A stretch of DNA of 23,568 bases, taken from positions 1-23,568 of the IMG/VR virus record IMGVR_UViG_3300020478_000071; one strand, 5' to 3'. The notes under the pieces were generated by a model. It made no database searches. It was not told the DNA's origin and saw only the letters and a program-made list of their open reading frames with translations. A program made the position numbers and the translations under genes. This document shows positions 4,104 through 11,832 of the stretch, one piece after another; the stretch's first letter is position 1; the number at the start of each line of letters is the position of its first letter. This stretch comes from a virus.

Positions 4104-4116
4104 GTGGAAATTCCAC
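4104..4116 (+). repeat. GTGGAAATTCCAC element, copy 1
   Basis: Exact copy, preceded by T and followed by GG. It is intergenic, 28 bp upstream of the candidate early -35 and 111 bp before the first early gene. Confidence 0.95.
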
Positions 4117-4143
4117 GGAATCGAAATTGGCCCCAAATATGTC

Positions 4144-4173
4144 TTGACGGTGAATACTTAGCGGGTGTACTGT
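4144..4173 (+). promoter_or_regulatory. Candidate early promoter P1
   Basis: TTGACG (4144-4149), an 18-bp spacer and TACTGT (4168-4173). The -35 is good and the -10 moderate. It would start a leader of about 45 bases before the gene at 4227, which has a CAGGGGAG ribosome site. It lies just downstream of the operator-rich block. Confidence 0.45.
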
Positions 4174-4226
4174 GTAGTTCAGAGAGGCAGACATAGGGTC
4201 AGCCTCCAAACAGGGGAGAATCCCAA

Positions 4227-4937
4227 ATGAATACCGACGCTTCAAACGTCAAACTTAATGCCAGTCAAATTGAGGGAATCGAGCAGTACGCAGCGGCAAG
4301 CACCGCGGCGGGTTCCAAATTTCAAACACTGCTCATCGAACTAGAGCCAGTCGTGAACGGATGGCTAGCCGAGGGCAAGAAAGCGACCGTCTACCGTGAC
4401 CGTCTCATCAAGCACATAGCAGCCCACGTAGACACGATGGACAGCCGTACTAACAAATTCGCTAACGTTCAGAACTGGCTCCAGACCAAGGCCTCTGAGG
4501 ATGTCTTGCGGATCGTCAACATGGCCGAGCGTCGCTCCGTCGTTCGCCCAGTGTTCGAACTGGCCGAAATGGATGTCGATCTCTGCGAGTACGAGTTCCT
4601 TGCACGTTGGGACAAGCTGGCCGCTGCTGCTGCTGCCCAGGACATCGACATGGCGGACGTACTCGTTGAGCACGTAGCGCCTAACGCCTCCAAGCTTGGG
4701 AAGTTCAATAAGACCACTCACAGTAAAGCGGTCAAGGCCATCACCCCAGAACCCGTGGAAATTCCACAGGCTGAGGATGTCGCAACCGAGGCCGATTGGG
4801 TGGTCGACCTAGGCAACGATTCAATCCGTAACGCTTGGCATGATTTCGAGGCCAAGGTATTTAGTGCGGACCTCAGTGATGATGATCGCACCTACTTGAT
4901 CGAAGGCATGGAGGCACTGGTTCAGCGCTTGAGCTAA
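4227..4937 (+). CDS. First early gene, unknown 236-aa protein
   Basis: A 236-residue protein with no domain that I recognise. It is Ala-rich and mostly helical in appearance, with an acidic C-terminal third and an A-A-A-A-A-A run near residue 130. A GGGGAG site lies 8-9 bases before the ATG. It is alone between promoter P1 and a strong terminator (4954-4990), so it forms a one-gene transcript next to the operator cluster. That is the usual place for a regulator or a replication/partition factor, but no helix-turn-helix is evident. An in-frame copy of the 13-bp element encodes V-E-I-P-Q at about residues 177-181. Confidence 0.82.
   Translation: MNTDASNVKLNASQIEGIEQYAAASTAAGSKFQTLLIELEPVVNGWLAEGKKATVYRDRLIKHIAAHVDTMDSRTNKFANVQNWLQTKASEDVLRIVNMAERRSVVRPVFELAEMDVDLCEYEFLARWDKLAAAAAAQDIDMADVLVEHVAPNASKLGKFNKTTHSKAVKAITPEPVEIPQAEDVATEADWVVDLGNDSIRNAWHDFEAKVFSADLSDDDRTYLIEGMEALVQRLS
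4755..4767 (+). repeat. GTGGAAATTCCAC element, copy 2
   Basis: Exact copy inside the gene at 4227-4937, in the V-E-I-P-Q frame, about 170 bases before that gene's stop. Flanks C and A. Confidence 0.95.
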
Positions 4938-4953
4938 CCCCTTCGAGGTCGAG

Positions 4954-4990
4954 GCCCCATCGCTTAGGCGGTGGGGCTTCTTCTTTTTTT
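4954..4990 (+). terminator. Rho-independent terminator after first early gene
   Basis: Stem GCCCCATCGC (4954-4963), loop TTAG, and GCGGTGGGGC (4968-4977) with one mismatch or wobble, followed by a T-rich tail TTCTTCTTTTTTT. It ends the transcript of the gene at 4227-4937, 17 bases after its stop. Confidence 0.9.
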
Positions 4991-5201
4991 GCGTCGATCA
5001 CTATCGGTGGTTCACTCTCAACTTTTTTTTCCTCGCTTCGCTCGGAAAAGAAAACGATTCTCGCCCTGCAAGCAGCCCGAGATCCCAGCCATAAGGACGC
5101 CGCTTTTATCGCCGCAACGAAGCGGCGGCGGCGTGATGATTCATCGTCGTCGCTGCGCTCCTAGACGAATCATCTTTTCACTGTCGGTTTGTTTGTTTGT
5201 T

Positions 5202-5241
5202 GTTAGGCTTGCCTAACATGAAGTTGTTAGGCTCACCTAAC
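5202..5241. repeat. Pair of GTTAGGC..CCTAAC palindromes
   Basis: GTTAGGCTTGCCTAAC (5202-5217, perfect palindrome) and GTTAGGCTCACCTAAC (5226-5241) start 24 bp apart. They share the outer GTTAGG/CYTAAC halves and 16-bp size with the array at 3884-3968, so one factor may bind both regions. The sequence also resembles DtxR/IdeR-type iron boxes (TTAGG...CCTAA), a possible host regulator; this is inference. The pair is about 130 bp upstream of promoter P2's -35. Confidence 0.75.
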
Positions 5242-5264
5242 ACGCCCCATTAGTCACGCCATCT

Positions 5265-10313: not shown

Positions 10314-10323
10314 AGGATAACTC

Positions 10324-10464
10324 ATGGAGTACTTTTCTATAGACCCACCAGATGATCCCTATGCGGACATGACTGAAGAGGAATATGACGAGATGATGGA
10401 AGCTCGTGAAATTGCTGAGTCATTGTATTGGGATAGAAAAATAGATGAGGCCAGAGGGAACTAG
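10324..10464 (+). CDS. Small acidic protein (46 aa)
   Basis: A 46-residue, very acidic protein beginning MEYFSIDPPDDPYADMTEEE, with 17 Asp/Glu in total. AAAGGA lies about 6 bases before the ATG, and its TAG is followed immediately by the ATG of the lysozyme-like gene. Acidic small phage proteins can mimic DNA, but nothing here proves that. The coupling supports it as a gene. Confidence 0.6.
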   Translation: MEYFSIDPPDDPYADMTEEEYDEMMEAREIAESLYWDRKIDEARGN

Positions 10465-10806
10465 ATGAACGTCTGGCTGGCTATTTGGCGTATTCTGGAC
10501 TTCGCTTCTTTCGTGGAAATTCCACAGGAACAAGTTCAGATCGCTGAATCTGTTTGCTCGTATGAATGGGAGGACAGCGACTGTGTGGAGGCTCTGGGGA
10601 TTGTTTGGTGTGAATCGCTAGGTAATCCTCGGGCCTACAACGGTGTTGACCACGGCCATTTTCAAGTAAATGAATTTTACTGGGCAAATGTTTTTGGTAA
10701 GAAAACTTGGGCTAAGCGGTATGACATATCAACCAATACGGCGATGGCTCATCACATTTACAACACTAAAGGAGCTTGGAGGCTCTGGACCTGTGGAAGG
10801 AAGTAA
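10465..10806 (+). CDS. Lysozyme-like / SLT-type protein in the early operon
   Basis: A 113-residue protein with a lysozyme-like pattern: CVEALGIVWCESLGNPRAYN, with Glu50 in the catalytic position, followed by GVDHGHFQVN and a C-terminal WRLWTCG. This resembles the E-S-x-G-N-P-x-A ... G-x-F-Q-I-N core of transglycosylases. The first 16 residues (MNVWLAIWRILDFASF) are hydrophobic and could act as a short membrane anchor or signal. Element copy 12 encodes V-E-I-P-Q right after that segment, at residues 17-21. It is not next to the late lysis genes, so a role at entry or in the early phase is possible. Start: ATG directly after the previous stop. Confidence 0.7.
   Translation: MNVWLAIWRILDFASFVEIPQEQVQIAESVCSYEWEDSDCVEALGIVWCESLGNPRAYNGVDHGHFQVNEFYWANVFGKKTWAKRYDISTNTAMAHHIYNTKGAWRLWTCGRK
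10513..10525 (+). repeat. GTGGAAATTCCAC element, copy 12
   Basis: Exact copy 48 bases into the lysozyme-like gene, V-E-I-P-Q frame, between its hydrophobic N-terminus and the enzyme domain. Confidence 0.95.
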
Positions 10807-11234
10807 TGATTACTAAAACTTGTTACAACGAAGAGTGCTCTCAGGAGAACCCTCAGCCACTCACCAATTTCCATAAACAATCAACAGGCAAACTCGGCGT
10901 ACGTTCACGCTGTCGTACCTGCCACAATCAAGCCATGCGTGACTACGAACGCAAACGGGGACCTGAATGGCGCAGAAAGAAAACTTTGCACCGATACGGG
11001 ATAACTCCCCAAGACTATGACCGCATGTTTAGGGAACAGGAAGGTAAGTGCAAAATATGTGAAAAAATTCCACAAGAGCGACACAGCAGAGATAGGCATC
11101 TCGTGGTAGACCATTGCCATACTACGCAGGCCGTAAGGGGCCTTCTCTGTCACTCGTGTAACCGAGCACTTGGAATGTTTAACGATGACCCTAAAGTGCT
11201 AGATAAAGCCGCAGCTTATTTGAGGAGTGCATGA
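10806..11234 (+). CDS. Endonuclease VII-like nuclease
   Basis: A 142-residue protein of the phage recombination endonuclease VII family (His-Me finger). An N-terminal zinc-ribbon-like part (Cys6, Cys11, then RCRTC at 36-39) precedes the domain. The domain starts with RYGITPQDYDRMFREQEGKC. It has Cys82/Cys85, a catalytic-type VDHCHTT (about 101-107), RGLLCHSCNRALG (Cys115/118, Asn119) and the usual tail A-A-A-Y-L. In T4 this enzyme resolves branched DNA before packaging. The ATG at 10806 overlaps the upstream TAA. A distorted version of the 13-bp element occurs at 11059-11073. Confidence 0.9.
   Translation: MITKTCYNEECSQENPQPLTNFHKQSTGKLGVRSRCRTCHNQAMRDYERKRGPEWRRKKTLHRYGITPQDYDRMFREQEGKCKICEKIPQERHSRDRHLVVDHCHTTQAVRGLLCHSCNRALGMFNDDPKVLDKAAAYLRSA
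11059..11073 (+). repeat. Possible decayed GTGGAAATTCCAC element
   Basis: GTGAAAAAATTCCAC keeps the right half (TTCCAC) and the outer GTG but has an A-run in place of GGAA. It is read as E-K-I-P-Q inside the endonuclease VII gene. It may be chance. Confidence 0.3.
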
Positions 11235-11235
11235 C

Positions 11236-11478
11236 ATGAAACATGATTGCCAAGGCAATCCTTCGCTCACCAATTACGGTAGAGGGTGCCGTTGCGACTT
11301 ATGTCGCTCTGCCAAATCCCTCTACGAACAAGAACGAAGGGATAAAGCAAGAAAGTATAAAGCTGAGAACCCAGATAAGACACCTCCGAAAAAACCAGCA
11401 GGGAAACGAGACAACCCCGTTGTCTATGCTGATGCGTTTACAAGAGGAGAAATATTGAGAGCAAGAGGAATGGCATGA
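11236..11478 (+). CDS. Small basic Cys-containing protein (80 aa)
   Basis: An 80-residue protein with an N-terminal pattern DCQGN...YGRGCRCDLCRSAKSLYEQ, in which the C-x-C-x-x-C group may bind metal, followed by a Lys/Arg-rich part. Such short Y-G-C-R-C-x-x-C modules occur in actinobacteriophage proteins. The ATG at 11236 is taken, 7 bases after GAGGAG; a GTG at 11227 would also be in frame. Its stop overlaps the next ATG. Function unknown. Confidence 0.65.
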   Translation: MKHDCQGNPSLTNYGRGCRCDLCRSAKSLYEQERRDKARKYKAENPDKTPPKKPAGKRDNPVVYADAFTRGEILRARGMA

Positions 11479-11807
11479 GCGAAGAAGAACCAGCTTGGGT
11501 GCAGCGCAAAGGTTTCACCGCTGTAACTGAGATGGAGCTTGAAATGTTTTCTGAAATCGCAGAGAACAATTCAGCATGGAACATAGATAGCCCTGCACAC
11601 TTGCGCTACCTAGATAGGTTGTGTTGGGTGTGGGAGAATCAACTTAAAGTTCTCAGATACCTGAGGCGACAAACAATGCTTGACCTATACCACGGAGGCT
11701 TCACGAAAGCCGAAGCTGGCAAGTTCATTAACCTCAAACGAACCAGAGCGCATGAACTGATAGAACAAGCGTCAGAAGAAAGATTACAGAGACAGACACC
11801 ATTCTGA
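11475..11807 (+). CDS. Possible HTH DNA-binding protein, last gene of the early operon
   Basis: A 110-residue protein whose C-terminal part (about residues 68-98, DLYHGGFTKAEAGKFINLKR and on) has the look of a helix-turn-helix. The N-terminal part is helical and Trp-rich. It overlaps the upstream gene as ATGA. It is followed by element copy 13 and a strong terminator, so it closes the transcript. It is one candidate for a regulator of the repeated element, by location only. Confidence 0.6.
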   Translation: MSEEEPAWVQRKGFTAVTEMELEMFSEIAENNSAWNIDSPAHLRYLDRLCWVWENQLKVLRYLRRQTMLDLYHGGFTKAEAGKFINLKRTRAHELIEQASEERLQRQTPF

Positions 11808-11819
11808 TCCAGCTAATCT

Positions 11820-11832
11820 GTGGAAATTCCAC
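11820..11832 (+). repeat. GTGGAAATTCCAC element, copy 13
   Basis: Exact copy, intergenic, with extended symmetry. It abuts the terminator stem that begins at 11835. Last copy in the window. Confidence 0.95.

Follow-up and report, generated by a model that had tools for sequence, protein, structure and literature searches.

The window analyzed here is the complete IMG/VR record G000, 23,568 bases of DNA from an uncultured marine phage, whose rightward early region carries a dispersed and nearly palindromic element, GTGGAAATTCCAC. The element occurs in 13 exact copies that span positions 4104-11832 and are confined to this region; 6 of them are intergenic and 7 lie in open reading frames, mostly near the ends of the frames, where several are positioned in the frame that encodes the peptide VEIPQ. 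Relatives of the phage were retrieved via a DnaB-like helicase and via the large terminase, and three relatives, designated L118, L101 and L090, share the element of the window. The early region is laid out as follows (distances are in base pairs, bp; promoters, here and throughout, are consensus predictions only).

4104-4116, plus strand: site 1 (GTGGAAATTCCAC), preceding both g1 and the weak promoter-like sequence listed next
near 4143, plus strand: weak promoter-like sequence TTGACG N18 TACTGT, judged by eye
4227-4937, plus strand: g1 (236 amino acids), opening gene of the rightward early region and, from its covariation with the element, proposed cognate DNA-binding regulator
4755-4767, plus strand: site 2, in frame within g1 (peptide VEIPQ), as in the g1 of L090
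4951-4980, plus strand: intrinsic terminator 3' of g1
5265-5277, plus strand: site 3, upstream of promoter P5374 (center at about -138)
5374-5402, plus strand: predicted promoter P5374, TTGACA N17 TAGAAT
5475-5487, plus strand: site 4, in the 5' end of the g2 gene, roughly +72 relative to P5374; ortholog L118:499 is T-centered
5971-5983, plus strand: site 5, at the 5' end of g5, in the VEIPQ frame
6379-6408, plus strand: intrinsic terminator immediately 5' of site 6
6424-6436, plus strand: site 6, between the terminator at 6379-6408 and promoter P6726
6726-6754, plus strand: predicted promoter P6726, TTGACA N17 TACAAT
6789-6801, plus strand: site 7, in the g7 leader, centered at +34 of P6726; ortholog L101:168 is T-centered
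7402-7414, plus strand: site 8, at the end of g7, 18 bp 5' of the start of g8 (GP88-like)
8165-8177, plus strand: site 9, 25 bp 5' of the start of g9
8758-8770, plus strand: site 10, at the end of g10, 31 bp 5' of g11 (DUF932)
9819-9831, plus strand: site 11, intergenic, 32 bp 5' of g12
10513-10525, plus strand: site 12, in the 5' part of g15 (SLT_3-like)
11475-11807, plus strand: g18, encoding a helix-turn-helix-like protein
11820-11832, plus strand: site 13, 3' of g18 and abutting a terminator; the position is retained in relatives with other elements
11834-11855, plus strand: intrinsic terminator abutting site 13 on its 3' side

Locally shuffled versions of the window contained no 12-base palindromic seed that occurred even twice, and matches to GTGGAAATTCCAC with up to three mismatches numbered 22 in the window compared to 10.5 ± 3.1 in shuffles. 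An earlier note on this DNA had described two symmetric six-base halves, GTGGAA and TTCCAC. The near-palindrome stands, but it is longer than was proposed: the half-site reads approximately TCYGTGGAA on both sides, and because the C at position -2 (23 of 26 half-sites) is conserved outside the 6-bp arms, the dyad extends to about 19 bp.

The same note had observed that all 13 copies carry A at the center on the plus (coding) strand. This was borne out both by exact matching and by a search with a W (A or T) center across the entire record, which yielded A on the plus strand only and no copies beyond the 13. Under independent coin flips, 13 one-way centers correspond to a two-sided p = 2.4e-4, although the copies are not independent. 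L118 and L101 keep most of the site positions of the window, with early-region DNA identities of 72-86% and ~97-98%, respectively. On the sense strand, we counted 10 A and 1 T centers in L118, 6 A and 1 T in L101, and 2 A in L090 (18 A and 2 T for the three relatives; 31 A and 2 T when the window is included), and a search with any base at the center of the element returned no G or C in these four genomes. T-centered copies on rightward genes of related phages, which the note had named, if present at similar frequency, as the finding that would speak against a meaningful orientation, thus exist in close relatives but are rare. L101:168 is orthologous to the A-centered site at 6789 and shares both its leader and its +34 placement relative to the same promoter; L118:499, on a rightward gene, is orthologous to the A-centered site at 5475. 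Across orthologous sites, the center was altered in 2 of 17 cases and the arms at 0 of 204 positions (p = 0.006); W is thus retained, whereas its direction is not.

Orientation was mixed in site classes of other relatives (8:3 for CGCGCA and 3:2 for TGTGGA), as it was in L187 and L119, although copies of one orientation were still in the majority. Over six site classes, 43 of 50 copies followed the majority direction of their class (32 expected), and the excess persisted when the class of the window was left out (30 of 37 versus 24 expected, p = 0.003). The fixed A polarity is therefore genuine in the window, yet it is no rule of the system. The suggestion that orientation matters keeps some weak support from the same-orientation excess, which is real and which either descent by site copying or a weak functional preference would yield, but strict polarity is contradicted by the flips at orthologous sites. 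Stoperators of obligate polarity, of the kind seen in Cluster A phages, where the bound regulator would halt RNA polymerase in one orientation set by the central A, would account for the 13 of 13 copies in the window and for the 43 of 50 over the six classes, and there is precedent, because reversal of the stoperators of L5 abolishes repression (PMC9283540) and Cluster A stoperators lie predominantly in one orientation (PMC6550527). Against T-centered copies at orthologous positions, one of them at +34 of a promoter, the mixed orientations of L187 and L119, and centers that vary among the copies within L188 and within L133, we consider this explanation unlikely, if the strongest of the alternatives.

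Among relatives whose early region is well covered, most possess a set of 14-17 bp dyads of their own, dispersed like the sites of the window; in total these comprise at least 10 unrelated sequences that often occupy orthologous positions. Other than the element of the window, these include TCTAAC-N3-GTTAGA, TATAAC-N3-GTTATA, TGTAAC-N3-GTTACA, TACTAA-N-TTAGTA, TTACTG-TTC-CAGTAA, ACCTAG-N4-CTAGGT, ATGTCA-CG-TGACAT, CTAGAA-N3-TTCTAG, GTCGCG-N4-CGCGAC, CGCGCA-S-TGCGCG, CACGCA-N4-TGCGTG and GACCAC-N4-GTGGTC. The position between g18 and g19, for example, is occupied by differing elements in relatives, and rewritten sites at orthologous positions were likewise found between L119 and the window and between L131 and L136. 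The cleanest switch is that from TCTAAC-N3-GTTAGA in L133 to TATAAC-N3-GTTATA in L145 and L177, where the flanks are almost the same and one base pair is altered per half-site at shared sites (one arm in L177 reads TGTAAC), the DNA around these sites is 84-97% identical, and L133 and L177 share 93-97% identity over aligned stretches. Similarly, the regulators of L284 and L275 are 79% identical and their sites are different. These comparisons of genome sequences suggest that the relatives most likely swapped the regulator gene and rewrote all of its docking sites jointly.

Next, we compared the element with the first early gene across 18 genomes. All 7 pairs with the same element had homologous first genes (30-80% identity), and only 3 pairs with different elements had similar first genes, with half-sites that are alike in each (GACCAC/GTACAC, ATGTCA/ATGTGA and TTACTAA/TTACTG). 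This covariation does not reflect simple relatedness, because the TerS-like neighbor gene used as a control stays 68-98% identical in 99 of 99 different-element pairs tested. In the window, g1 lies between the first two sites, the second falling within the gene. L090, initially retrieved by the DNA motif alone, encodes a g1 homolog with 30% identity and has both sites, one of them at the matching place inside the gene; the 84-88% identity of its terminase-region DNA places it in the same phage family, and a broader search for g1 homologs returned L090 only. The g1 product, which is hypervariable and predicted to be all-helical (AF2 pLDDT 66.6), is thus most likely the cognate regulator of the 13 sites, as judged from this covariation. 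Foldseek comparison of two AF2 models of first-gene products with the PDB gave no match at E ≤ 0.001, and HHalign between first-gene groups gave no signal.

A different early gene could in principle encode the cognate protein: g18 carries a helix-turn-helix-like region, and L133 differs from L145/L177 in the DUF932 gene as well as in the small gene that follows the second promoter. However, L133, L145 and L177 have an identical g18 despite their different elements, and the DUF932 gene and the small second-cassette gene fall into groupings other than those of the element, and all three were rejected as candidates. A host protein would leave the differing elements in near-identical phages unaccounted for, and we regard a cognate other than g1 as improbable. 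The DUF932 gene has undergone a swap of its own, with unrelated proteins encoded in the same place (L133 2361-3062 and L145 1396-2376) in phages that are otherwise ~90% identical, which does not track the element.

To relate the sites to transcription, 33 strong predicted promoters were scored against site positions by rotation. A site was centered at +25 to +60 in 22 of the 33, most commonly at +34/+35, compared to a mean of 1.1 and a maximum of 6 in rotations, and in none of the 33 did a site overlap the -35 to -10 region. Many sites are placed between a terminator and the following promoter, and others adjoin terminators. Around promoters, we also found paired sites 170-300 bp apart; a fixed upstream partner at -150 to -110 of strong promoters was not above chance (1 versus 1.2 expected), and because this upstream distance is not significant, looping between paired sites is a mere idea.

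The earlier note had also raised the possibility that the RNA form, a 5-7-bp stem with an AAU loop, is what is recognized, and here our results point the other way. In phage lambda, the first early gene, N, is hypervariable among relatives and its cognate hairpin, boxB of nut, lies near +30 of the early promoter. The hypervariable first gene and the leader sites at about +34 of our phages resemble this arrangement, and the first early gene could accordingly encode an RNA-binding protein, either an N-like antiterminator or a translational regulator, that reads a transcript hairpin whose loop fixes the polarity, as the same-orientation excess might suggest. In L187 and L188, outer stems indeed pair more than expected at random (p < 0.001 and p = 0.002, respectively), and certain sites serve as terminator stems. 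On the other hand, the variants of the center are mostly mutual reverse complements (A/T, G/C, GG/CC and TTC/GAA), as recognition of double-stranded DNA predicts, and this mode is therefore favored. Moreover, in L135 and L145 the core hairpin, at only -0.3 to -1.9 kcal/mol, is close to unstable, the flanks of the window sites do not pair beyond chance (p = 0.72), center flips are tolerated at orthologous sites, and many sites fall in the gap that separates a terminator from the promoter following it. The favored strand-symmetric recognition of DNA, the multiplicity of sites in each operon and the presence of some of them upstream of promoters set the system apart from N/nut, and we think recognition of RNA improbable as well. 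A search of Rfam gave no match.

A subset of the sites in L187 and L188 may nevertheless have a structural role. At L208:1401 (L187 genome) and at L201:6400 and L201:7560 (L188 genome), the element, copy-specific complementary flanks and a T-run together form an intrinsic-terminator stem after a gene, and the sites at 4794 and 5911 on the reverse strand of L264 (counted from the terminase side) are likewise terminator stems. At one shared position, differing elements (L131:4313; 4478 in the L136 genome, reverse complement of L207; 8570 in the L135 genome, reverse complement of L202; and L129:3739) tip a larger hairpin whose CTGAATGAGACTCGGG...GGCTTATTCAG-like flanks are conserved; this may be a structured RNA absent from Rfam.

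Centromere-like or nucleoid sites serving partition, DNA organization or replication rather than transcription control would also combine many dispersed palindromes with one putative cognate protein, but the absence of ParA (PF13614) from the 11 relatives searched, many of them fragmentary, and the fixed spacing of sites downstream of predicted promoters make this very improbable.

Collectively, we think it probable that the sites are multi-site, double-stranded DNA operators of a phage-encoded DNA-binding regulator, likely g1, that blocks early transcription and co-evolves with its sites. The sequences themselves show the sites and their dyad symmetry, the concerted rewriting, the covariation with g1, the placement relative to predicted promoters, and the center flips. 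From these we infer that a dimer of the regulator would bind the ~19-bp dyads with their W center as double-stranded DNA, in the leaders of early promoters (at about +34), upstream of promoters and at gene boundaries. A protein bound at +34 would leave the promoter free for binding and meet the polymerase soon after the start, acting as a stoperator-like roadblock to which looping between paired sites could possibly add, and sites flanking terminators are consistent with such a role. Early transcription would thereby be silenced, including that of g1 itself in a form of autoregulation, for the presumable purpose of early shut-off or superinfection exclusion. Regulator and sites would evolve jointly, and the A polarity of the window would be mostly historical, with copies derived from A-centered ancestors and a W center that is needed but tolerated in either direction.

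Several observations weigh against this model. A purely symmetric dimer leaves the same-orientation excess across classes unexplained. Several of the 33 promoters are mutually orthologous, even though at least six element classes nonetheless contribute, and a general scan of the window showed no excess of promoter-like sites. In some of the relatives examined (e.g., L176), no element was detected. The g1 products of the window and L090 are only ~30% identical despite their common element, and the first gene is absent from the contigs of L145 and L177, so that the covariation evidence comes from genomes other than this finest switch pair. Finally, the first-gene products have no credible Pfam or PHROG match and no recognizable DNA-binding fold, with structure models of modest confidence.

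The closest known counterparts are the stoperators and immunity repressor of Cluster A mycobacteriophages (L5, Bxb1) and of Cluster CA Rhodococcus phages: ~13-bp sites, scattered over early regions in intergenic gaps or toward the ends of genes and for the most part pointing one way, whose sequence varies with the repressor (PMC6550527, PMC13313380, PMC5721134). The stoperator-like layout anticipated by the earlier note is upheld, in that many copies are dispersed in such places and covary in sequence with a candidate regulator gene among relatives. Orientation is uniform in the window (13 of 13) and stands at 31:2 in four genomes, with other relatives at 8:3 and 3:2. Unlike asymmetric 13-bp stoperators, the sites here are near-perfect dyads of 13-19 bp with half-sites that are wholly different between close relatives and a polarity that is not strict, the candidate regulator is encoded by the first early gene and matches nothing in Pfam or PHROG, and neither integrase nor ParA was found in 11 records, many of them fragmentary. 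In SPbeta, 15-bp SPBRE repeats in many phage promoter regions are bound by the phage repressor MrpR (PMC10516654), which is similar with respect to a repeated element near many promoters and one phage-encoded candidate regulator. However, MrpR has a tyrosine-recombinase fold, whereas g1 has no fold match and PF00589 was absent from 11 records, and, unlike SPBRE, our sites also lie inside genes and leaders and differ among relatives. The start-associated sequences (SAS/ESAS) of Cluster K mycobacteriophages occur close to the starts of genes in the non-structural half, 11-19 times and in one orientation, but they are asymmetric and carry AGGAG, with GGGATAGGAGCCC 3-7 bp before the start codon (PMC3203893); the element described here has a different sequence and begins 18-32 bp 5' of starts or sits within genes. 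We class the system as a variant of the dispersed-operator kind outside these families; the asymmetric site by which stoperators are defined is lacking.

How a multi-site regulator switches specificity is an old puzzle, since all of its sites must follow, and near-identical genomes from before and after a switch are available here (L133 versus L177 and L284 versus L275). It is conceivable, if somewhat short of an even chance, that these apparently lytic marine phages harbor a new class of early regulator under strong diversifying selection and cassette replacement, with all 3-13 dispersed operators rewritten jointly at fixed positions and many mutually blind specificities that plausibly provide superinfection exclusion among co-infecting relatives without lysogeny. 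The data suggest that phages with no detected integrase may have specificity groups akin to those of phage immunity, and g1-type proteins would add a regulator group with no known relatives in the libraries searched. With regard to lifestyle, integrase (PF00589) and ParA (PF13614) were absent in the 11 relatives searched, many of them fragmentary, and serine integrases were not searched.

A near-identity search of named phages returned none, and the bins of two relatives, L291 and L292, are named Acidimicrobiaceae TMED189 and Euryarchaeota, so that binning, being in conflict, is uninformative on the host. Two small early-operon proteins of the window (16243-16683 and 11475-11807) show sigma region-4-like helix-turn-helix similarity. 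A second inverted repeat, GTTAGG-N4-(CCTAAC), is present in the window at 3930, 3953, 5202 and 5226, with two copies flanking g1 on each side. The best named terminase match is MW202803.1 (L294; 51%), and this nearest named relative contains 17 GTTTCC-N3-GGAAAC-like dyads in both its early and late regions, those of the leftward region mostly with an AGAAAC right half.

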